Origin: Phorcus lineatus
Taxonomy: Eukaryota; Mollusca; Gastropoda; Trochida; Trochidae
Assembly: GCA_921293015.1 (NCBI GenBank)
Contig: OV121088.1
Coordinates: 39,122,836 to 39,186,835, forward strand
Direction of reading: 5' to 3'
Length of the DNA: 64,000 bases
Each line of letters starts with the position of its first letter. Position 1 is the stretch's first letter. Below are positions 10,799 to 61,935 of this stretch, one piece after another. The notes under the pieces are model-generated. The model saw only the letters and a list, made by a program, of their open reading frames with translations, made no database searches and was not told where the DNA came from. The position numbers and the translations under genes were made by a program.

Positions 10799-11018
10799 AC
10801 TAAAGACAGGAAAATATAGCCACATTCAACTCAATACAGCAGCTAAATACAGGGAAATATAGCCACAACAAACTCAAATACAGCGGCTAAATACGGGAAA
10901 ATATAGCCACAATCAACTCAAATACAGCGGGTAAATACAGGGAAATATAGCCACAACAAACTCAAATACAGCGGCTAAATACGGGAAAATATAGCCACAA
11001 CAAACTCAAATACAAAAG
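10799..11018. repeat. 44-bp tandem repeat, about five units
   Basis: The word (C/G)TAAATAC recurs at 10843, 10887, 10931 and 10975, exactly 44 bases apart. Each is followed by GGGAAAATATAGCCACAA and ACTCAAATACAGCGG. Alternating variants (ACAGGGAAATA and ACGGGAAAATA) suggest an 88-bp higher-order unit. Diverged units extend upstream to about 10700. Confidence 0.9.
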
Positions 11019-20500: not shown

Positions 20501-21780
20501 GTTTTACCAGTGATTATTTTACAAGAACATATTCGGTAATTTCATCTCTGCATTGTCTAGAAAACTGATTGCAGTTGGCTGAACTTAAGTTACATCGAGG
20601 TTCACGAGTTGAAGAAGTTCTAAATGGGCTAAAATAAACTTGGGTGAATGCGTGAAAGTGGTCATTACCCAGAGTATATTCTTGATATACACCTCACTCA
20701 CATTTACAAGACGGATAAGCTGTTGAACGGGTGAAATCCAATACAAAATATAGTAGATTGACCATGTTTCCACATTCCACTTGCCATACATTTTTCTAGA
20801 GTTATGGGCCTTGACTCCTGCGTTTTAAGACAAGTTGTTCACGTCTTTTAAAGTCATCTCGTCGGACAGTTATTGCTCAATCAGTATGAAATTTAGAACA
20901 TATCTATCGGAATATATAAGTAATCCGCAAGTTGAAACGTCTGTGACGATTTTCGTCACTTATGACCTTTGACTTAAGCAAATGAACCCAAATGTTAACT
21001 CCTTTGGTTAAATGTTCTCATTCAAGGGCAAAAACAAACCTATCATAAACTATGAAAGTATTCTGTCAGCGTTTTTTTATCTTAACTATGTCAATCTCAA
21101 TAAAGTTGACCATTTATTGATTTTTTGCTTTCAGAAAAACAATGATTCCTCGAGACAGCCTTGAAAGGTTGTCATATCGGTCTTCTCTAATGCATGTATT
21201 TGGTTGGTTGTGACGAATTTGTTAAGTTTTATAAAATATGGGTAAAATAATAATGCTGTCTTATAAAATGAATTTCATATTGATATTAATGCACTCCGCA
21301 TTCTTTCCAAATGTTCATTAAGGAGGTAAAGTATCCATCAGAAGGATGCGAGGCAGTCGTGCTCTTAAAACACTCTTGTTAAGTATAGAATATAACATCA
21401 AACTAAAACAACAGATGTCACCATACAGTCAAGGGAGATAATCATAATCTTGTTACATGAATGTCTCTCCGTTAAAATGAAAGTTAGTGTACTGGTAACA
21501 GTTTCTGAAAACACCTAATTAATAAGTAAAAAAGACGATTCAGGTTAATTTTCAGTATTTTGTAATAATTACAATCTGTAACACATTCACCATATAACAA
21601 TATGTAAGAGGGAATAATCTTCTAAAGAGAGTTCTTCTCGTGAAAAGCCGAGTGTCAGAGCCTTAATACTTCAACCACCTTAGGAGTGTCAAAACCGAAT
21701 TTGATACTCTATAGGAAATGTCTTATCGAGTTCCTGAGTTCATCAACACAACTCGTAATATAAACGTTTTGATCAGCGAG
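20501..21780 (+). other. gene-free stretch upstream of BTB gene 1, probable intron
   Basis: This sequence is shared with the stretches before BTB genes 2, 4 and 5: AAACTATGAAAGTATT, TTTATCTTAACTATG.CAAT and TGAAAGT.AGT.T.CTGGTAACAGT recur in order. It contains no coding frame. Shared flanks show that the duplicated unit extends well beyond the coding exon. Confidence 0.6.
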
Positions 21781-21827
21781 ATTTCTTCTTCAGAATATCA
21801 CTTGGAGTTGAACCTGAAGTACTCATT

Positions 21828-23312
21828 ATGGAAGACAAACCTGAATTCCTCACAAATGAAATTGTACAGATGTATGAACCAGACGACACAATGTTCACAA
21901 CTTCAGGACCTATGAGTGACGTCACACTGCTAGTGGAAGGTCGCGTTCTGCATGTCAGTAGGTGTGTCCTGTCTCTCGCCTCGCCTATCTTCAGGAAGAT
22001 GTTGGATTGGGAGTTCAAGGACAAGGGGGAGATAACTCTTTTGGACAAGAACTACAATAATATTGTGGAACTACTTCTCTGTATATATCCTTCCACCACT
22101 AAATTCATCACCAGGTCTAACCTGGAGACTGTGCTGCCACTTGCGGATGAATACAAGATGGAGTCCCTCAAGGAGCGATGTTGCCAGATCCTTCTACAGC
22201 AGTTGCAACATGACCAACGATATAACCAGCCTACCAATGAGCAACTTGTCCATTTCTTGTATCTTGCCGACAAGTATAAGATTGAGGCGTTGATTGAAGC
22301 GTCCATCGAGAAAGGAATCTTCACTTCTTTTGATGGAGAAAATGGGCTGAAGAGCTTTCCAGAATTTCGGGAGATGTCAGTCGAGGTGAAATATCGTATC
22401 TGTATTGCGCAATTGAGTACACTTGAGGGACCACTGAAACGCCTTATCATTGCAGGGGAGATTAGACATGGTGCGACTGGCTTTACATTTGGCGCTCCTA
22501 CTAAGACACATAGCACTCAAGTTTCAACTACACCTGTCTCACAACGTACGTGTCAACATGGTGCGACTGGTTTTAAATTTGGCACTCGTATTCAGACGCA
22601 TAGACCTCAAGTTTCAACTACTACCACCTCACAACCTAAACATGGTGCGACTAGCTTTACATTTGGCACTCCTGTTCAAACGCATAGCACTCAAGTTTCA
22701 ACTGCACCTGCCTCGCAACCTAAACATGGTGCAACTATCTTTACATTTGGCACTCCTATTCAGACGCATAGACCTCAAGTTTCAACTACACTCGCCTCAC
22801 AACCTGAACATGGTGCGACTATCTTTACATTTGGCACTCCTGTTCAAACGCATAGCACACAAGATTCAACTGCACCTGCCACAAAACCTGAACATTGTGC
22901 GACTATCTTTACATTTGGCACTCCTGTTCAAACGCATAGCACTCAAGTTTCAACTGCACCTGCCACAAAATCTGAACATGGTGCGACTATCTTTACATTT
23001 GGCACTCCTGTTCAAACGCATAGCACTCAAGTTTCAACTGCACCTGCCTCGCAACCTAAACATGGTGCAACTATCTTTACATTTGGCACTCCTATTCAGA
23101 CGCATAGACCTCAAGTTTCAACTACACTCGCCTCACAACCTGAACATGGTGCGACTATCTCTACATTTGGCACTCCTGTTCAAACGCATAGCACACAAGA
23201 TTCAACTTCACCTGCCACAAAACCTGAACATGGTGCGACTATCTTTACATTTGGCACTCCTGTTCAAACGCATAGCACTCAAGTTTCAACTACACCTGCC
23301 ACAAAACCTTAA
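21828..23312 (+). CDS. BTB/POZ protein with FxFG repeat tail (gene 1, long)
   Basis: The 494-residue product has a BTB/POZ domain at about 27-129 (SDVTLLVEGRVLHVSRCVLS, SPIFRKML, LLLCIYPS, VLPLADEYKMESLKERC), a helical BACK-like segment to about 205, then ten 28-residue units from about 214, each with an F(T/K)FG motif (one is STFG). BTB domains dimerise and often recruit cullin-3; FxFG motifs in nucleoporins bind transport receptors. A link to either role here is inference. An acceptor (TTTCTTCTTCAG, ending 21793) precedes the exon, but the ancestral ATG at 21795 is ATA, so the next in-frame Met at 21828 is used. The stop (TAA, 23310) is a point change inside the array; 16 more units follow. 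Confidence 0.85.
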   Translation: MEDKPEFLTNEIVQMYEPDDTMFTTSGPMSDVTLLVEGRVLHVSRCVLSLASPIFRKMLDWEFKDKGEITLLDKNYNNIVELLLCIYPSTTKFITRSNLETVLPLADEYKMESLKERCCQILLQQLQHDQRYNQPTNEQLVHFLYLADKYKIEALIEASIEKGIFTSFDGENGLKSFPEFREMSVEVKYRICIAQLSTLEGPLKRLIIAGEIRHGATGFTFGAPTKTHSTQVSTTPVSQRTCQHGATGFKFGTRIQTHRPQVSTTTTSQPKHGATSFTFGTPVQTHSTQVSTAPASQPKHGATIFTFGTPIQTHRPQVSTTLASQPEHGATIFTFGTPVQTHSTQDSTAPATKPEHCATIFTFGTPVQTHSTQVSTAPATKSEHGATIFTFGTPVQTHSTQVSTAPASQPKHGATIFTFGTPIQTHRPQVSTTLASQPEHGATISTFGTPVQTHSTQDSTSPATKPEHGATIFTFGTPVQTHSTQVSTTPATKP

Positions 23313-24618
23313 CCTGGTGCGACTATCTTTACATTTGGCACTGCTATTCAAACGCAGAGCACTCAAATTTTAACTGCTTTTGCCTCACAACCTAAACATG
23401 GTGCGACTATCTTTGCATTTGGCACTCCTATTCAGACTCAAAGCACTCACGTTTCAATTGCACCTGTCACAAAATCTGAAAATGGTGCGACTATCTTTAC
23501 ATTTGGCACTCCTATTCCGACGCAAAGCACTCAAGTTTCAACTGCACCTGTCACAAAACCTCAACATGGTGCGACTATCTTTACATTTGGCACTCCTGTT
23601 CAAACGCATAGCACTCAAGTTTCAACTGTACCTGCCACAAAATCTGAACATGGTGCGACTATCTTTACATTTGGCACTCCTGTTCAAACGCATAGCACTC
23701 AAGTTTCAACTACACCTGCCACAAAACCTTAACCTGGTGCGACTATCTTTACATTTGGCACTCCTATTCAAACGCAGAGCACTCAAATTTTAACTGCTTT
23801 TGCCTCACAACCTAAACATGGTGCGACTATCTTTGCATTTGGCACTCCTATTCAGACTCAAAGCACTCACGTTTCAATTGCACCTGTCACAAAATCTGAA
23901 AATGGTGCGAATATCTTTACATTGGCACTCCTATTCCGACGCAAAGCACTCAAGTTTCAACTGCACCTGTCACAAAACCTAAACATGGTGCGACTATCTT
24001 TACATTTGGCACTGCTATTCAGACGCAGAGCACTCAAATTTTAACTGCTTTTGCCTCACAACCTAAACATGGTGCGACTATCTTTGCATTTGGCACTCCT
24101 ATTCAGACTCAAAGCACTCACGTTTCAATTGCACCTGTCACAAAATCTGAAAATGGTGCGACTATCTTTACATTTGGCACTCCTATTCCGACGCAAAGCA
24201 CTCAAGTTTCAACTGCACCTGTCACAAAACCTAAACATGGTGCGACTATCTTTACATTTGGCACTGCTATTCAGACGCAGAGCACTCAAATTTTAACTGC
24301 TTTTGCCTCACAACCTAAACATGGTGCGACTATCTTTGCATTTGGCACTCCTATTCAGACTCAAAGCACTCACGTTTCAATTGCACCTGTCACAAAATCT
24401 GAAAATGGTGCGAGTATCTTTACATTTGGCACTGCTATTCAGACGCATAGCACTCAAGTTTCAACTGCACCTGTCACAAAACCTAAACATGGTGCGACTA
24501 TCTTTACATTTGGCACTGCTATTCAGACGCAAAGCACTGAAGTTTCAACTGCACCTGCCATAAAATCTGAACATGGTGCGACTATCTTTACATTTGGCAC
24601 TCCTATTCAGACGCATAG
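22466..24618 (+). repeat. 84-bp minisatellite encoding FxFG units, about 26 copies
   Basis: Each unit reads H-G-A-T-(I/G)-F-T-F-G-T-P-(V/I)-Q-T-(H/Q)-S-T-Q-V-S-T and then about seven Ser/Thr/Ala/Pro/Lys residues. Ten units precede the stop at 23310. Units 3-6 are repeated as units 7-10 (a 336-bp higher-order repeat), and in the later part a three- to four-unit block with TAFASQPK, FAFGTP and APVTKSE variants is repeated. A one-base deletion (T lost from ACATTTGG near 23922) shifts the frame in about the eighteenth unit, and a second in-frame TAA lies near 23730. Confidence 0.95.
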
Positions 24619-24664
24619 GATGGTGAACATGTCCCGACATTTCCAAAATGATCCAAATCTTTGA
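23313..24664 (+). pseudogene. out-of-use 3' part of BTB gene 1
   Basis: Downstream of the premature TAA the array continues for about 16 units and ends in MVNMSRHFQNDPNL and TGA (24662-24664), the tail shared by all cluster members except the divergent gene 3 (MVN..SRHFHNDPTL). One compensating base at the 23922 deletion would put this tail in frame with the start. The region is therefore decayed coding sequence, now probably 3' UTR. Confidence 0.8.
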
Positions 24665-24856: not shown

Positions 24857-24936
24857 AATAAATTAGATATTTGAGTGTATTTATTTTCCATCGCGTCTCT
24901 TAAATCTCTACAATAACAAAGGTGATCGGCAAAGAA

Positions 24937-25095
24937 TGTTGAGACGATTGATCATTCAGAATTCTTCACTTTGTGTTTAAGTTTCCTTTCATCAGGTCAT
25001 TTCTTTAAGATGGCAAACAATGTTGAGACGATTATTAATTCAGAATTCTTCACTATGAGTTTAAGTTTCCTTTCATCAGGTCATTTCTTTAAGAC
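24937..25095. repeat. tandem duplication of a 3'-flank segment
   Basis: Two copies of AATGTTGAGACGATT ... TTTAAGTTTCCTTTCATCAG ... TTTCTTTAAGA sit side by side, about 78 bp apart. The matching flanks of genes 2, 4 and 5 have it once (32507, 56195 and 62180), so the duplication is private to this copy. Confidence 0.85.
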
Positions 25096-27222: not shown

Positions 27223-27462
27223 ACGACTTTGTATCCCAGTAGAAACAATTTTTAATCAACTTAATTTTATGAAGCTGCAACATAATTTAAGTAACCAATT
27301 TACTGAAAGAGTCAACAGCATCGACTCCGGTGAGCTCTACATCAAACCCGCATGTCCAAAGTAATTCACCACGACAGGAGGTCGGCCGGGCCTGTGATAT
27401 ATCACATTCCAGTTCCCAACTTGATAAGCAAGAACTTATGAGCGCAACCGTTCTATCACTCT

Positions 27463-28108
27463 GTGTCTCATCCTCTTAGATTTATGTCATGGAATATTGA
27501 TGGGTTATCCAACAAACTTCATGATGGAGACTTTTTTGAGTTTTTACTGCAGTTTCATCTTATATGTTTATGTGAAACTTTCCTTGATGAATGTTTAACT
27601 ATACCTGAACTATGTGATTATGAATTGTATTTTAGCAAGGCAATTAAGTTATCTAAATATGGTAGACTTTCAGGTGGAATTTACGTTTTTGTCAAGAAAT
27701 CTATATCTAAGTTTTGTTCGAATATTGAAGTTGATATAAACAATGTTGTCTGTCTACGTTTTGATAAACAAATGATAAACCACGAACGTGACATATTATT
27801 CATCGTATTACAAAGTTATTCAACAATGTACGTTGTTCCAACAGATATAAGAGTGGTTACTTGAGAATGCTAACTATGTGACAGGTTGTGAGATCTTGAT
27901 CTTAGGAGATTTTAATGCGAGAATGGGAGAAGGAAATCAACCACCAGAATCCGAATATGATAAATGTGATAATGTTTTTCCAGAAGATGAACCAGTTCCT
28001 CTAGATTCACGTACTACTGAAGATATGGTTGTAAATAGATTTGGAAACTTGTTACTTAATGGAAAGTGGAAAGAATTAAGAAGTATTGCCAGTAAAAGAA
28101 CTACTTGA
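27463..28108 (+). pseudogene. LINE endonuclease remnant
   Basis: The frame at 27463-27864 gives MSWNIDGLSNKL, LICLCETFLDE and GRLSGGIYVFVKK, the N-terminal half of an APE-type endonuclease. After a frame change, 27878-28108 gives the ILGDFNARMGEG motif. The C-terminal catalytic part is missing, so it cannot nick DNA. Confidence 0.8.
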
Positions 28109-28174
28109 GTTGAGATAACTGGTGAAACATGGCATAATCACTTTTAAACTATTTTCGATAAAACAGAAGTTGAA

Positions 28175-29103
28175 ATGGATAATGATACAGAATTTCAGGC
28201 AGAAACGAGAGTTGTGATGAGTGATATTGAACAGCAGATATTAGAATCTCCCATTACTGACATCGAAATAAGAAAAGCCATCAAGGGAATGAAAAATAAC
28301 AAATCTCCAGGTGTTGATGGTATTTTAACGGAAATGATAAAATGTTCAGAGAAAATTATCATGCCATTTATGGTATCCCTTTTTAATAAACCATTTAATT
28401 ACGGTACTTTCCCAGACTCGTGGAAAAGGCGATCATCATCCCTTTACATAAAAAAGGTAATACAGAAAATCCAGATAATTATAGCGGTATACTTAGTATT
28501 TTAAGCAAAGTATATACTAGCATATCAAATGAACTCCTAACGCAATGGGCAAATATCATGAACAAAGTATCCGAAAATCAAGCCGGATTTAGAAGAGGTT
28601 ATTCCACTGTGGATCATATTTTTACATTGTGCTCTATTCTTGAGAAGTCTTTAAGTAAGAAAAGGAGAAAAGTTCATGTAGCATTCAGGTCTAAACTCTG
28701 GATTCTATTATCAAAATACGGGCTTTGTGGTAAAATATTAAAGGCTTTAAAAGGTATTTATACGTCAGTTAAATCCTGCGTGCGATTTAATTCTAATATG
28801 ACTGAATATTTTGAGTGTCCATTTTGTTTGAGACAAGGATGTATGTTAAGTCCGATGCTTTGTTCATTATTCATTAATGAACTGTCTACAGAGATATTAC
28901 AAAAAGGTAAACATGGAATTCAAATGTTTCCTGATATGATTCAAATGTTAATGTTACTTTTTGCTGATGATGTCATTTTAGTTTCAGACACGCAATGTGG
29001 CTTACAGTGTCAGTTGAATATCTTAGCAGCTTATACAAAATCATGGGGATTTACTGTGAATATGGAAAAATCAAATATAGTTGTGTTTAGGAAGAGGGAG
29101 GGG
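28175..29103 (+). pseudogene. LINE reverse transcriptase remnant
   Basis: 28175-28504 carries the finger motif (AIKGMKNNKSPGVDG). After a frameshift, 28420-29106 continues with AIIIPLHKKGNTENPDNYSG, ENQAGFRRGYSTVDHIF, LRQGCMLSPMLCSLFINELS and the catalytic box FADDVILVSD. The palm segment that should hold the first catalytic Asp is deleted between KVHVAF and RSKLW (near 28684), so the enzyme is dead. The C-terminal AAYTKSWGFTVNMEKSNIVV is present. Confidence 0.88.
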
Positions 29104-30169
29104 TAGGGGACCGTTATCAAAGAATGATGTGTGGTTCTTAAACGGGGAAAGAATGAAAATTGTGAATACCTATACATATTTAGGATTTCTGTTTATACTT
29201 GTAAATTCAGTATGCCTAAAGCCCTGGATGATCTTTCTTTACGGGCCAAAAAAGCTCTTACAGAAATAACTGTTAATTAAAGAAAACTTGGAATTCTTTC
29301 GCCTGATGTTTACTTTAAAATATTTGACAGTCAAATACAACCGATACTCTGTAAGCATCAGAGATTTGGGGGTTTAAAAGATATGAAAATATTGAAAAAA
29401 TACACATCTCTGCTTGTAAGATATATTTAAATGCCGGGCCTCAAACACCAAATGCGATCGTGTATGGTGAATGTGGTAGATACCCTTTGTATATCAATTC
29501 TGCATTGCGTGCAATAAACTATTGGATTAAGTTATTATTCATGCATGAAGATCGTTTACCAAAAAAATCTTATAACACGTCACTTCACATGGATGATATG
29601 GGCCATAACACTTGGGCTTCTGAAATAAGAAAATTGCTTTTCTCTCATGGATTTGGTTTTGTCTGGCTTTCACAAAGTTTAGGAAACAAAGAACTGTTTA
29701 TCAATACTTTTAAAACTCGGGCAAAAGATATTTTCTTTCAAAACTGGAATGAACATTAAATAACAGTACAAGATATGACATATATAGACAATTTAAGAGT
29801 CTGCTTACAACAGAAAAATATTTGTTTGAGATAATAGATTTCAGATTTCGTAAATGTTTTATTAAGTTTCGATCGGGGCTGCTACGTTTAAGAATTAATG
29901 AAGGTAGATTGCAGAAAATTGATAGACTTTCTAGGAAGTGCCCTATTTGTAAGTGCGGAATAGAAGATGAGTTCCATTTTTGTTCTATTTGTCCATTATA
30001 TAAGGATTTAAGAAAACTGTACCTACCTAAAACTGTAACTGGAAATATTCATGCATTTAAACAACTGCTAACTACTGATGATAAGTATATGTTGAAAAGG
30101 TTAAGGCATTTTGTCTTTTATGCTTACGAAAAACGGTGTAAAAATCTTAATGAAATAACTTTTGAGTAA
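29104..30169 (+). pseudogene. LINE C-terminal region remnant with Cys/His motif
   Basis: Three broken frames (29104-29269, 29460-29759, 29822-30169) cover the post-RT part. The last includes CPICKCGIEDEFHFCSICPLY, a Cys/His motif found at the C-terminus of many APE-type LINEs. Frames are separated by small indels. Confidence 0.7.
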
Positions 30170-31366: not shown

Positions 31367-32197
31367 ATGTCACTTGGAGTTGAACCTGAAGTTGACACTA
31401 TGGAAGATGAACCTCAAGTCCTCACAAAAGAACCTGTGCAGATGTACGTACCAGACGACACAATGTTCACAACTCCAGGGCCTATGAGTGACGTCACACT
31501 GCTAGTGGAAGGTCGCGTTCTGCATGTCAGTAGGTGTGTCCTGTCTCTCGCCTCGCCTGTCTTCAGGAAGATGTTGGAGGGAGAGTTCAAGGACAAGGGG
31601 GAGATAACTCTATTGGACAAGAACTACAATGATATTGTGGAACTACTTCTCTGTATATATCCTTCCACTACTAAAATCATCACCAAGTCTAACCTGGAGA
31701 CTGTGCTGCCACTAGCGGATGAATACAAGATGGAGTCTCTCAAGGAGCGATGTTGCCAGATCCTTCTGCAGCAGTTGCAACATGACCAACGATATAACCA
31801 GCCTACCAATGAGCAACTTGTCCATTTCTTGTATCTTGCCGACAAATACAAGGTTGAGGCGCTGATTGAAGCGTCTGTCGAGAAAGGAAAAAACATTTCG
31901 TTGGATGGAGATAATGGATTGAAGAGCTTTCCAGAATATCAGAAGATGTCGGTTGAGGTGAAATATCGTATCTGTATTGCACGACTGAGTAATCTTGAGG
32001 GGCCACTGAAACGCCTTATCATCGCAGGGAAGAATATTCCTCAAGTTTATAACGACAGTGGTCTATTTGCAACTGCACATGGCCAAAAACCGAAACGTGG
32101 TGCGACTGGCTTTTCATTTGAGTCTCCTGATCCGAACAAATTGAAGGACATGGTGAACTCATTGTCCCGACATTTCCACAATGATCCAACTCTTTAA
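31367..32197 (+). CDS. BTB/POZ protein, short form (gene 2)
   Basis: The 276-residue product has BTB/POZ at about 38-140 (SDVTLLVEGRVLHVSRCVLS, SPVFRKMLEGEF, LLLCIYPS, LPLADEYKMESLKERC), a helical BACK-like segment to about 218, and a short tail with one degenerate unit (RGATGFSFESP, where the FxFG Gly has become Glu), ending DMVNSLSRHFHNDPTL. There is no kelch, MATH or zinc finger, so a cullin-3 adaptor or dimerisation role is only inferred. The start is the first ATG, one base after an acceptor (TTTCTTCTTCTTCAG|A). The frame is intact. No first-exon copy lies between gene 1 and this gene, so it may share the promoter near 17.8 kb. Confidence 0.9.
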   Translation: MSLGVEPEVDTMEDEPQVLTKEPVQMYVPDDTMFTTPGPMSDVTLLVEGRVLHVSRCVLSLASPVFRKMLEGEFKDKGEITLLDKNYNDIVELLLCIYPSTTKIITKSNLETVLPLADEYKMESLKERCCQILLQQLQHDQRYNQPTNEQLVHFLYLADKYKVEALIEASVEKGKNISLDGDNGLKSFPEYQKMSVEVKYRICIARLSNLEGPLKRLIIAGKNIPQVYNDSGLFATAHGQKPKRGATGFSFESPDPNKLKDMVNSLSRHFHNDPTL

Positions 32198-39141: not shown

Positions 39142-39825
39142 ATGTCACTTGGAATTAAACCTGAAGTCATCACAAAAGAACTTGGGCAGATATGCCAACC
39201 AGACGACACCATGTTCACAACTCCAGGACCTATGAGTGACGTCACACTGCTAGTTGAAGGTCGCGTTCTGCATGTCAGCAAGTGTGTCCTGTCTTTCGCC
39301 TCGCTTGTCTTCAGGAGGATGTTGGAGGGGAAGTTCAAGGTCAAGGGGGAGATAACTCTCGTCGACAAGAAGTACAATGATATGGTAGAGCTACTTCTTT
39401 GTATATATCCTTCCACCAGTAAGAAGGTTACCAGGGAAACGTGGGAAACAGTGCTACCCTTGGCTGACGAATACGAGATGGAAGCCATAAAATCACAATG
39501 TGAGAAGCTTCTTGTGGATCAACTACAGTTTGATGAACGATACAAAAAACCATCAACCGAAGAGCTCGCTCATTTTTTGTCCAAAGCAGACAAATATAGG
39601 CTTGAGCAAATGCTTTCTGTTTGTATTGAGAAAGCAAGTAGAGTCAAGTTTGATGGTCCAAATGGCTTGAAGAGTATGGCTGATTTTGAGTCCATGTCAG
39701 CTGAAGCAAAATTTCGTGTTGCGTCAGCAAGAATAACCGAAACGGAAAAATCCCTTAATACAATTGATTTTCATTATGCGTTGCGTCCAAATCTTCCTAA
39801 AAGATTGTTTACAGCTCAAACTTAA
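39142..39825 (+). CDS. BTB/POZ protein, divergent short form (gene 3)
   Basis: The 227-residue product has BTB/POZ at about 29-131 and a helical C-terminal part. The first 90 residues closely match the paralogs (GPMSDVTLLVEGRVLHVSKC). From about residue 92 it diverges sharply (KKVTRETWETVLPLADEYEM, LLVDQLQFDERYKKPSTEEL), at DNA level just after CCTTCCACCA near 39418. It has no FxFG unit and no DMVN..SRHFHNDPTL tail, ending RPNLPKRLFTAQT. The ATG follows an acceptor (TTTCTTCTTTTTCAG|A, ending 39140). An in-frame deletion of about ten codons shortens its N-terminus. The mosaic pattern suggests gene conversion of the 5' half. The frame is intact. Confidence 0.88.
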   Translation: MSLGIKPEVITKELGQICQPDDTMFTTPGPMSDVTLLVEGRVLHVSKCVLSFASLVFRRMLEGKFKVKGEITLVDKKYNDMVELLLCIYPSTSKKVTRETWETVLPLADEYEMEAIKSQCEKLLVDQLQFDERYKKPSTEELAHFLSKADKYRLEQMLSVCIEKASRVKFDGPNGLKSMADFESMSAEAKFRVASARITETEKSLNTIDFHYALRPNLPKRLFTAQT

Positions 39826-53649: not shown

Positions 53650-55674
53650 ATGTCACTTGGAGTTGAACCTGAAGTCGTTAATATGGAAAACAAACCTGCA
53701 GTCCCCACAAAAGAAGCTGTGCAGATGAACGAACCAGACGGCACAATGTTTACAACTCCAGGGCCTATGAGTGACGTCACACTGCTAGTTGAAGGTCGCG
53801 TTCTGAATGTCAGTAGATGTGTCCTGTCTCTCGCCTCGCCTGTCTTCAGGAAGATGTTGGAGGGAGAGTTCAAGGACAAGGGGGAGATAACTCTCTCGGA
53901 CAAGAATTACAAGGATATTATGGAACTACTTCTTTGTATATATCCTTCCACCACTAAAATCATCACCAAGTCTAACCTGGAGACTGTGCTGCAACTTGCG
54001 GACGAATACAAGATGGAGTCCCTCAAGGAACGATGTTGCCAGATCCTTCTGCAGCAGTTACAACACGACCAACGATATAACCAGCCTACCAATGAGCAAC
54101 TTGTCCATTTCTTGTATCTGGCCGACAAGTATAAGATTGAGGCGTTGGTTGAAGCGTCCATCGAGAAAGGAAAGTTCATTTCTTTGGATGGAGATAATGG
54201 ACTGAAGAGCTTTCCAGAATTTCAGCAGTTGTCAGTCGAAGTGAAATTTCGTATCGATATTGCGCGACGGAGTAATCTTGAGGGTCCACTGAAACGCCTT
54301 ATCATTGCAGGGGAGAGTAGTCCTCAAGTCTATAACGACAGTGGTCTATTTGCAACTGCACATGGCCAAAAAACGACTGGTGCGACTGGCTTTTCATTTG
54401 GCACTCCTATTCAGACGCAAAGCACTCAAGTTTCAACTACTACCGCCTCACAACCTAAACTTGGTGCGACTGGCTTTACATTTGGCACGCCTTTTCAGAC
54501 TCAAAGCACTCAAGTTTCAACTGCACCTGCGACAAAACCTAAACATGGTGCGACTATCTTTACATTTGGCACTCCTATTAAGACTCAAAATACTCAAGTT
54601 TCAACTGAAACTGCCACAAAACCTAAACATGGTGCGACTGGCTTTACATTTGGCGCTCCTATTCAGACACTAAGCACTCAAGTTTCAACTGCATCTGCCT
54701 CACACTCCAATCATGGTGCGACTGGCTTTACATTTGGCACTCCTATTCAGAATCAAAACACTCAAGTTTCAACTGCACCTGCCACAAAACCTAAACATGG
54801 TGCGACTATCTTTACATTTGGCACTCCTATTAAGACTCAAAATACTCAAGTTTCAACTGAAACTGCCACAAAACCTAAACATGGTGCGACTGGCTTTACA
54901 TTTGGCGCTCCTATTCAGACACTAAGCACTCAAGTTTCAACTGCATCTGCCTCACACTCCAAACGTGGTGCGACTGGCTTTACATTTGGCACTCCTATTC
55001 AGAATCAAAACACTCAAGTTTCAACTGCACCTGCCACAAAACCTAAACATGGTGCGACTATCTTTACATTTGGCACTCCTACTCAGACTAAAATCACTCA
55101 AGTTTCAACTGCACCTGCCACAAAACCTAAACATGGTGCGACTATCTTTACATTTGGCACTCCTATTCAGACGCAAAGCACTCAAGTTTCAACTGAAACT
55201 GACACACAACCTAAACATGGTGCGACTGGCTTTACATTTGGAACTCCTATTCAGACACTAAGCACTCAAGTTTCAACTGCATCTGCCTCACAATCAAAAC
55301 ATTGTGCGACTATGTTTACATTTGGCACTCCTATTCAGACACTAAGCACTCAACTTTCAACTGCATCCGCCTCACAATCAAAATATTGTGCGACTGGCTT
55401 TACATTTGGCACTCCTATTCAGACTCAAAGCACTCAAGTTTCAACTGAAACTGACACACAACCTAAACTTGGTGCGACCGGCTTGACATTTGGCACTCCT
55501 ATTCAGACGTATAACCTTCAAGTTTCAACTACTACTGTTTCACAACCTAAACTTGGTGCGACTGGCTTTACATTTGGCACTCCTATTCAGACTCAAAGCA
55601 CTCAAGTTTCAACTGAAACTGCCACGAAACCTAAACATGGTGCGACTGGCTTTACATTTGGCACTCCTATTTAG
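53650..55674 (+). CDS. BTB/POZ protein with FxFG repeat tail (gene 4, long)
   Basis: The 674-residue product has BTB/POZ at about 38-140, a helical BACK-like segment to about 218, then a link (SSPQVYNDSGLFATAHGQK) shared with gene 2, then about 15 full 28-residue units from 243 plus a partial one. Most carry FTFG (FSFG in the first, LTFG in one) in a Ser/Thr/Gln-rich context without predicted structure. The ATG lies one base after the acceptor (TTTCTTCTCCTTCAG|A, ending 53648). The stop is TAG where other units have CAG (Gln). The reading frame beyond it stays open to the ancestral C-terminus, so this is the better preserved of the two long genes. Function unknown; FxFG-mediated binding to transport receptors or condensates is inference. 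Confidence 0.88.
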   Translation: MSLGVEPEVVNMENKPAVPTKEAVQMNEPDGTMFTTPGPMSDVTLLVEGRVLNVSRCVLSLASPVFRKMLEGEFKDKGEITLSDKNYKDIMELLLCIYPSTTKIITKSNLETVLQLADEYKMESLKERCCQILLQQLQHDQRYNQPTNEQLVHFLYLADKYKIEALVEASIEKGKFISLDGDNGLKSFPEFQQLSVEVKFRIDIARRSNLEGPLKRLIIAGESSPQVYNDSGLFATAHGQKTTGATGFSFGTPIQTQSTQVSTTTASQPKLGATGFTFGTPFQTQSTQVSTAPATKPKHGATIFTFGTPIKTQNTQVSTETATKPKHGATGFTFGAPIQTLSTQVSTASASHSNHGATGFTFGTPIQNQNTQVSTAPATKPKHGATIFTFGTPIKTQNTQVSTETATKPKHGATGFTFGAPIQTLSTQVSTASASHSKRGATGFTFGTPIQNQNTQVSTAPATKPKHGATIFTFGTPTQTKITQVSTAPATKPKHGATIFTFGTPIQTQSTQVSTETDTQPKHGATGFTFGTPIQTLSTQVSTASASQSKHCATMFTFGTPIQTLSTQLSTASASQSKYCATGFTFGTPIQTQSTQVSTETDTQPKLGATGLTFGTPIQTYNLQVSTTTVSQPKLGATGFTFGTPIQTQSTQVSTETATKPKHGATGFTFGTPI

Positions 55675-55850
55675 ACGTATAACCTTCAAGTTTCAACTAC
55701 TACTGTTTCACAACCTAAACTTGGTACGACTGGCTTGACATTTGGCAACCCTATTCAGACGCAAAGCACTCAAGTTTCAACTGAAACTACCACAAAACCT
55801 AAACTTGGTGCGACTGGCTTTACATTTGGCACTCCTATTCAGACGTATAC
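54380..55850 (+). repeat. 84-bp minisatellite encoding FxFG units, about 18 copies
   Basis: Units follow (H/L)-G-A-T-G-F-T-F-G-T-P-I-Q-T-Q-S-T-Q-V-S-T plus seven variable residues (ETATKPK, ASASQSK, TTVSQPK). Units 3-5 are repeated as 6-8 (252-bp higher-order repeat). Unit variants differ from those of gene 1 (GF against IF; ETATKPK), so the two arrays have homogenised separately. Confidence 0.95.
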
Positions 55851-55926
55851 TCCTGGACTGAGTCCAAAAACATTGAAGGACATGGTGAATATGCCCAGAC
55901 ATTTCCACAATGATCCAACTCTTTGA
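55675..55926 (+). pseudogene. in-frame 3' remainder of BTB gene 4
   Basis: After the TAG at 55672-55674 the frame is open for 83 more codons: two further units, YTPGLSPKTLKDMVNMPRHF and HNDPTL, ending TGA at 55924. No frameshift intervenes, so readthrough or an allele with CAG would give about 757 residues with the tail seen in genes 2 and 5. Confidence 0.8.
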
Positions 55927-61104: not shown

Positions 61105-61935
61105 ATGTCACTTGGAGTTGAACCTGAGGTCGTCACTATGGAAGACAAACTTGAAGTTGTCACAAACGAAGCTGGGCAGATGAATGTACCAGACGACACA
61201 ATGTTCACAACTCCAGGACCTATGAGTGACGTCACACTACTAGTTGAAGGTCGCGTTCTGCATGTCAGTAGGTGTGTCCTGTCTCTCGCCTCGCCTGTCT
61301 TCAGGAAGATGTTGGAGGGGGAGTTCAAGGACAAGGGGGAGATAACTCTTTTGGACAAGAACTACAATGATATTGTTGAACTACTTCTCTGTATATATCC
61401 TTCCACCACTAAAATCATCACCAAGTCTAACCTGGAGACCGTGCTGCCACTTGCGGACGAATACAAGATGGAGTCTCTCAAGGAACGATGTTGCCAGATC
61501 CTTCTGCAGCAGTTACAACATGATCAACGATATAACCAGCCTACCAATGAGCAACTCGTCCATTTCTTGTACCTGGCCGACAAGTACAAGGTTGAGGCGT
61601 TGATTGAAGAATCTGTCGAGAAGGGAAAGTTCATTTCTTTGGATGAAGAAAATGGATTGATGAGCTTTCCAGAATTTCAGAAGGTGTCAGTTGAGGTGAA
61701 ATATCGTATCTGTAATGCACGACTTAGTAATCTTGAGGGGCCGCTGAAACGCCTTATCATTGCAGGGAAGAATGTCCAACATGTTTCTGCACCTCCCTCA
61801 CAACCTAAACATCCTGGGACTGGCTTTTCATTTGGCGCTTCTGCTCAGACGTCTACTCCTGGACAGAGCTTGAACACGTTGAAAGACATGGTGAACGCAT
61901 TGTCCTGTCATTTCCACAATGATCCAACTCTTTGA
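61105..61935 (+). CDS. BTB/POZ protein, short form (gene 5)
   Basis: The 276-residue product has BTB/POZ at about 38-140 and a BACK-like helical segment, nearly identical to gene 2. The tail is VSAPPSQPKHPGTGFSFGAS, AQTSTPGQSLNTLKDMVNAL and SCHFHNDPTL, with a single intact FSFG unit, the probable ancestral state of the arrays in genes 1 and 4. The start is the ATG at 61105, one base after the acceptor (TTTCTTCTTTTTCAG|A, ending 61103). The frame also opens 16 codons earlier, but those bases are the polypyrimidine tract, so they are intron. It has no nearby first exon and may be spliced from 50.9 kb. Confidence 0.9.
   Translation: MSLGVEPEVVTMEDKLEVVTNEAGQMNVPDDTMFTTPGPMSDVTLLVEGRVLHVSRCVLSLASPVFRKMLEGEFKDKGEITLLDKNYNDIVELLLCIYPSTTKIITKSNLETVLPLADEYKMESLKERCCQILLQQLQHDQRYNQPTNEQLVHFLYLADKYKVEALIEESVEKGKFISLDEENGLMSFPEFQKVSVEVKYRICNARLSNLEGPLKRLIIAGKNVQHVSAPPSQPKHPGTGFSFGASAQTSTPGQSLNTLKDMVNALSCHFHNDPTL

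Follow-up and report, generated by a model that had tools for sequence, protein, structure and literature searches.

The BTB gene cluster and its two FxFG arrays

The window, that is, the whole stretch of 64,000 nucleotides from Phorcus lineatus analysed here, holds five BTB copies, all on the plus strand. They were located with the BTB domain of g1 as the query, at 21828 (g1), 31400 (g2), 39157 (g3), 53683 (g4) and 61138 (g5). The genes g1 and g4 are tandem copies in this cluster, and each carries an array of 84-bp units behind its BTB part. The features are given below by window position, followed by one copy that lies outside the window.

21780..21799, plus strand: likely 3' splice site of g1 (pyrimidine tract and CAG), predicted from sequence
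21828..23312, plus strand: open reading frame of g1, BTB part and 10 array units, 494 aa, stop TAA at 23310-23312
21903..22202, plus strand: BTB/POZ domain of g1, residues 26-125 (Pfam PF00651, E 2.1e-21)
22470..24618, plus strand: array of g1, 26 units of 84 bp (unit 1 of 90 bp, unit 18 of 83 bp, the last incomplete)
23730..23732, plus strand: second copy of the g1 stop, in unit 15, five units (420 bp) downstream of the first
23904..23986, plus strand: unit 18 of g1, 83 bp, frameshifted by deletion of one base in a T run
24575..24664, plus strand: last partial unit of g1 and remnant of the C-terminal tail (MVNMSRHFQNDPNL), beyond the reach of the g1 frame
31400..32197, plus strand: g2, BTB paralog with a single unit and C-terminal tail, FSFE at 32111-32122
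39157..39825, plus strand: g3, more distant BTB paralog without FG unit and without tail
53650..55674, plus strand: g4, BTB paralog that carries the second array and ends in unit 16 at TAG 55672-55674, frame also given from 53683
54379..55844, plus strand: array of g4, 18 units of 84 bp, the last incomplete (TRF and unit count)
55845..55926, plus strand: what remains of the g4 C-terminal tail, on the 3' side of the g4 stop
61138..61935, plus strand: g5, BTB paralog with one unit and C-terminal tail, FSFG at 61825-61836
C13:39203836-39204441: g7 (L007), g3-like BTB copy with one in-frame stop

Each of the five genes in the window matched the BTB profile PF00651 (E 3e-21 to 2e-24), as did all 22 of the paralogs scanned. 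Just before the start, g1 to g5 have TTTCTTC...TTCAG followed by AATRTCACTTGG, and it is likely that each has a good 3' splice site there, at which splicing would occur. In g1, positions 21795-21797, just after the splice site, read ATA where the sister genes have their start ATG, and the BTB frame is intact from a downstream ATG. The BTB frame of g4 is intact from the usual ATG.

TRF delimited the g1 array at 22466-24618 (period 84, 25.6 copies, 86% matches), and an anchor-based count gave 26 units, the first at 22470 and in frame behind the BTB domain. When the units were read one by one, FTFG was found in 19 of the 26 and FxFG in 24. The initial annotation had proposed a BTB domain joined to about 26 units, each with FTFG; the array and the in-frame BTB domain are borne out, the presence of FTFG in every unit is not. 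Nor, in this assembly, do the units form one protein, as had been supposed, since the frame from 21828 stops at 23310 after unit 10, with nine FxFG inside the open frame, the stop recurs in unit 15, and unit 18 is frameshifted. The remnant of the g1 tail, which ends at 24664, lies 3' of both stops and the frameshift. The open frame of g4 holds 15 FxFG. The last unit of the whole g4 array continues into a C-terminal tail like that of g2, g5 and g6. The stops of g1 and g4 both remove this tail, which these three sisters have kept.

Read in the +1 frame, the g1 array is open for 311 residues (22438-23373) and gives a Leu-rich repeat. We rejected this frame as support, since it follows from an 84-bp unit without stops in that frame, of which it is probably a by-product. 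Elsewhere in the window, a duplication of 84 bp in two copies, at 24928-25094 within the g1 3' flank, has a TRF consensus that looks unlike the array unit, and a 44-bp minisatellite at 10800-11014 (4.9 copies, 88% matches) overlaps no open reading frame of at least 110 residues. A LINE-like element lies between g1 and g2, with a reverse transcriptase match (PF00078, E 9.6e-20) at 28399-29106 among open reading frames at 27442-30169. It is in several separate frames, and for four adjoining open reading frames Pfam gave nothing at E up to 0.01.

When the genome (958 Mb, 74 contigs) was searched with the g5 protein, 78 candidates were scored and 51 matched, 50 over the BTB domain and one over the g4 tail only. 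Seven of the 50 sit in the cluster, g6 and g7 lying just outside the window. These seven BTB genes each have their coding part in one open frame, that of g7 with one stop in it, and in the stretches read of g3 and g7 the FG unit and tail are absent. Among the 43 matches outside the cluster, 23 BTB genes were read in open frame (L036 interrupted by a stop, L045 in two pieces), and none has FxFG after the BTB domain; L030 has one FFFG, before the start. No relatives were found in viral contigs.

The first matches of the family's BTB profile were KLHL22, SPOP and KBTBD4. BACK_BPM_SPOP (PF24570) was weakly matched in 12 of the 22 paralogs scanned at E up to 0.1 (best 1.4e-5); within the window the match was weak in g2 and g4 (E 0.12 and 0.2), and g1 was absent from the matches. 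The BTB part suggests a relation to the SPOP/KLHL group of CUL3 adaptors, but at E up to 1 Pfam gave no match to MATH or Kelch in g1 to g5.

Origin and growth of the array units

Between the BTB/BACK-like part and the short C-terminal tail, g2, g5 and g6 each have a single 28-residue linker unit; in g1 and g4 this unit is repeated many times. The single units read GATGFSFE... in g2, PGTGFSFGASAQTSTPG... in g5 and GTTGLSFE... in g6, each followed by a tail like LKDMVN.LSRHFHNDPTL. Their motifs are FSFE, FSFG and LSFE, respectively, the Gly of FxFG being replaced by Glu in two of the three single-unit paralogs (g2 and g6). Since these sisters have one unit each, the array would have grown from the linker unit.

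A genome-wide search with the array protein, in which 150 of 305 candidates were scored, found true arrays only in g1 and g4; seven weak rows on C9, C32, C11 and C7 (E 0.02-0.5) were left unread. A further 64 rows at C15 (11.2-11.5 Mb) were rejected as relatives of the array. The three loci read there, L019, L022 and L025, are minus-strand C2H2 zinc-finger arrays with an 84-bp period (Pfam confirms C2H2 for L022), and, read in antisense, they match the FG array with E values as low as 1.5e-11 because of the common 84-bp period. The C15 loci form a cluster of 84-bp arrays, L019-L028, to which the unrelated status is extended from the three loci read.

Mean DNA identity of the units is 0.869 and 0.858 within the two genes versus 0.833 between them, and block copies of three, four and five units occur within the arrays. 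A tree of the units had 3 label changes between genes versus 13.1 in shuffles, which indicates that most of the expansion was independent in g1 and g4. The stop-bearing unit 10 of g1 was copied as unit 15, so array growth appears to have gone on after the frame broke. The grouping of g1 and g4 as sisters has a bootstrap of only 49; a 3-base gap common to the tails of both is a better sign of common origin, though still a single one. Coding minisatellites have a period divisible by three, block copies, and unit numbers that differ between gene copies. The arrays have a period of 84 bp, divisible by three, with block copies at lags 3-5 and 26 versus 18 units.

Selection on the arrays and the BTB domain

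Changes among the units were counted by parsimony on 40 full-length units, four of the 44 (g1 units 1, 18 and 26, and g4 unit 18) being dropped. There were 27 silent, 96 replacing and 2 stop changes, versus a neutral expectation of 29.6, 91.2 and 4.2. The array spacers evolve as if neutral, with almost no constraint. The residues F7 and G8 are identical in all 40 units, with no replacing change among the 125 unit changes versus 6.5 expected (P 0.0015 for the motif, which had been named beforehand; P 0.029 when judged over any adjacent codon pair). F5, F7 and G8 combined have 3 replacing changes versus 9.3 expected (P 0.013). A local lack of mutation around F7-G8 could also be at work, because silent changes, too, are scarce over codons 1-3 and 5-8 (3 versus 7.8 expected, P 0.043).

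Only two indels were seen in the arrays, one of 6 bases and one of 1 base, versus 16.5 expected from the flanks (P about 1e-5), where 125 gap events per 946 mismatches were summed over overlapping, non-independent gene pairs. With a ratio of 0.074, taken from one long flank match with few gaps, the deficit had a P of 0.005; a good non-coding minisatellite control was lacking for this test, the 32 sequences at hand giving only three arrays (at least 4 copies, period at least 15) beside the C2H2 loci. The constancy of F7 and G8, together with the rarity of indels, suggests some past selection on frame and motif.

The BTB parts were compared by changes unique to one copy, with columns gapped in any of the five compared genes removed. 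The silent and replacing changes numbered 4 and 15 in g1, 6 and 13 in g4, 4 and 2 in g2, 10 and 6 in g5, and 9 and 9 in g6, which is less constrained than g2 and g5. Pooled, g1 and g4 have 10 silent and 28 replacing changes versus 23 and 17 in g2, g5 and g6 (Fisher p 0.0065). Pairwise dN/dS was 0.49 between g1 and g4 versus 0.14-0.18 among g2, g5 and g6, g7 being left out. By these counts the BTB parts of both array genes are relaxed.

Interpretation and comparison with known systems

The joining of a BTB domain and an FxFG array is unusual, and we know of no named family that combines the two. A limited look at the literature on BTB with FxFG or FG repeats or nucleoporins did not turn up this combination in any title or abstract opening, which is not proof of absence. 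The claim that FxFG motifs in Ser/Thr-rich sequence are joined in frame to a BTB domain stands. Ser and Thr make up 33% of the array tails, which have 10 FG in 284 residues and 16 FG in 453, mostly 28 apart (about 7 per 200), and would count as FG-repeat sequence under a working criterion of at least 5 FG in 200 residues (PMC8311347). FG repeats on non-pore proteins are common under a loose criterion, with 2,863 of 563,552 Swiss-Prot entries (PMC8311347).

The suggested comparison with FG-nucleoporin profiles was negative, neither array protein matching in Pfam at E up to 1; it is a weak test, as Nucleoporin_FG passes its cut-off nowhere in a six-frame search of the genome. The best non-BTB Pfam match of the array proteins was bMG5 in g4 (E 4.4e-4), below its cut-off. 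No pore-anchoring domain was seen, Pfam giving no match over cut-off besides BTB in g1 and g4, and the g4 array had no match to PDB chains at E up to 1. As to intrinsic disorder, both array tails fall just on the folded side by charge-hydropathy, though their combined content of W, Y, L, I, V, M and C is low, at 10.6 and 11.5%. An AlphaFold model of g5, from an input with the five window proteins, was poor (mean pLDDT 52, tail below 50).

We lean towards a linker repeat that expanded in a fast-evolving BTB family with ties to CUL3 adaptors and that was once translated and has now partly decayed, a reading which we judge somewhat better than an even bet. In two tandem BTB copies, unequal exchange or slippage would have multiplied an 84-bp linker unit with an FSFG-type motif, as in coding minisatellites, at least one copying step being later than the stop in g1. 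For much of its history the array would have been read in frame, its spacers almost free of constraint, while frame and perhaps FG core may have been preserved for a time, before both copies came to end early, without the tail. The nucleoporin-like look would come from the single FSFG-type motif of the founding linker, copied many times. If g1 and g4 have any role left, it would basically be that of the family, BTB proteins related to the SPOP and KLHL adaptors of CUL3. This account, a coding minisatellite, is the most economical.

That g1 and g4 are instead plain pseudogenes, which make no useful protein and whose array is now an untranslated minisatellite, has perhaps one chance in four. It accords with the stops in both arrays, the ATA in g1 in place of the sisters' start ATG, the predominance of replacing changes in both BTB parts, and the presence of the stop-bearing g1 unit in two copies, the array having been copied after the frame broke. 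However, both genes keep an intact BTB frame, which in g4 opens at the usual ATG and in g1 at one downstream, the dN/dS of 0.49 between them is below 1, and array indels are rare. A stop inside a single coding exon, moreover, need not trigger mRNA decay.

A working BTB-FxFG protein, whose dimer would display 18 (g1) or 30 (g4) FxFG and bind importin-beta, NTF2 or related factors, seems unlikely to us, whether as a soluble binder, as a decoy, or as a means to bring CUL3 ligase to transport receptors or pores. It would draw on the 9 (g1) and 15 (g4) FxFG in open frames, mostly 28 residues apart, and on the constancy of F7-G8 in all 40 units counted. FxFG peptides are weakly bound by KPNB1 (PMC8769072), FSFG repeats of Nsp1 interact with Kap95 (PMC4621360), and the BTB protein Roadkill, which has been seen at the pores of Drosophila cells, inhibits the entry of Ci into the nucleus (PMC3002282). 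Yet both copies are truncated with relaxed BTB parts, the single units of g2 and g6 have FSFE and LSFE, no nucleoporin profile was matched, and arrays were found in two genes of one genome only (150 of the 305 candidates scored). A tail that works by binding transport receptors may exist, but has little in its favour. Slightly less probable still is its more specific form, a lineage-specific BTB protein with 9 to 15 FxFG per chain as a soluble multivalent binder of importin-beta or NTF2 that might also deliver CUL3 ligase activity to pores or transport receptors, with an FG domain derived from a minisatellite. A condensate scaffold, also put forward at the outset, seems the least likely of the proposed roles, because the FG density of the arrays is well below the about 8 per 100 of cohesive Nup98 (PMC9918544).

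It is very improbable that the tail matters as a Thr/Ser-rich linker of variable length rather than as an FG domain, for instance if a BTB adaptor engaged in a host-defence arms race used it as an arm. The family is indeed expanded in clusters, and for the BTB-MATH families of C. elegans and plants, which are likewise expanded, recognition of foreign substrates has been hypothesised (PMC4063957), but the spacers evolve as if neutral and are not diversifying. A young, loosely constrained and truncated expansion is more likely than a new transport factor. As it stands, the expansion of the linker repeat mainly indicates that nucleoporin-like sequence can come from repeat expansion and need not mean a transport role. 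If the arrays are expressed, an FG-like tail would have originated within one gene cluster by copying of a single 28-residue linker, and the origin of an FG domain would be directly testable, including the number of motifs needed for karyopherin binding.

Among known BTB systems, the genes resemble the BTBD6 genes of vent snails, many in number and in tandem clusters (56 copies in Chrysomallon squamiferum and 35 in G. aegis), BTBD6 being a CUL3 adaptor (PMC7736800). The cited passages on these mention no repeat tail, and the likeness is one of number and clustering. With the SPOP/BPM (MATH-BTB-BACK) and KLHL adaptors of CUL3 they share the BTB domain and a weak BACK_BPM_SPOP match; unlike these, g1 to g5 are without MATH or Kelch match at E up to 1.

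Among FG proteins, the arrays recall the FSFG-K region of yeast Nsp1, which has regular FxFG motifs with spacers between (PMC4621360). The FSFG-K constructs, as described there, have a 19-residue spacing and Lys-rich charged spacers, whereas the arrays have a spacing of 28 residues, are Thr/Ser-rich with few charges, and come without a pore anchor. FG repeats on non-pore proteins are known, for example on the GLH helicases of P granules, in which, as in g1 and g4, they are joined to an unrelated folded domain (PMC8311347). In GLH-type proteins the spacers are described as being without consensus (PMC8311347), whereas the spacers of the arrays are part of the repeat, with a unit identity of 0.86-0.87.
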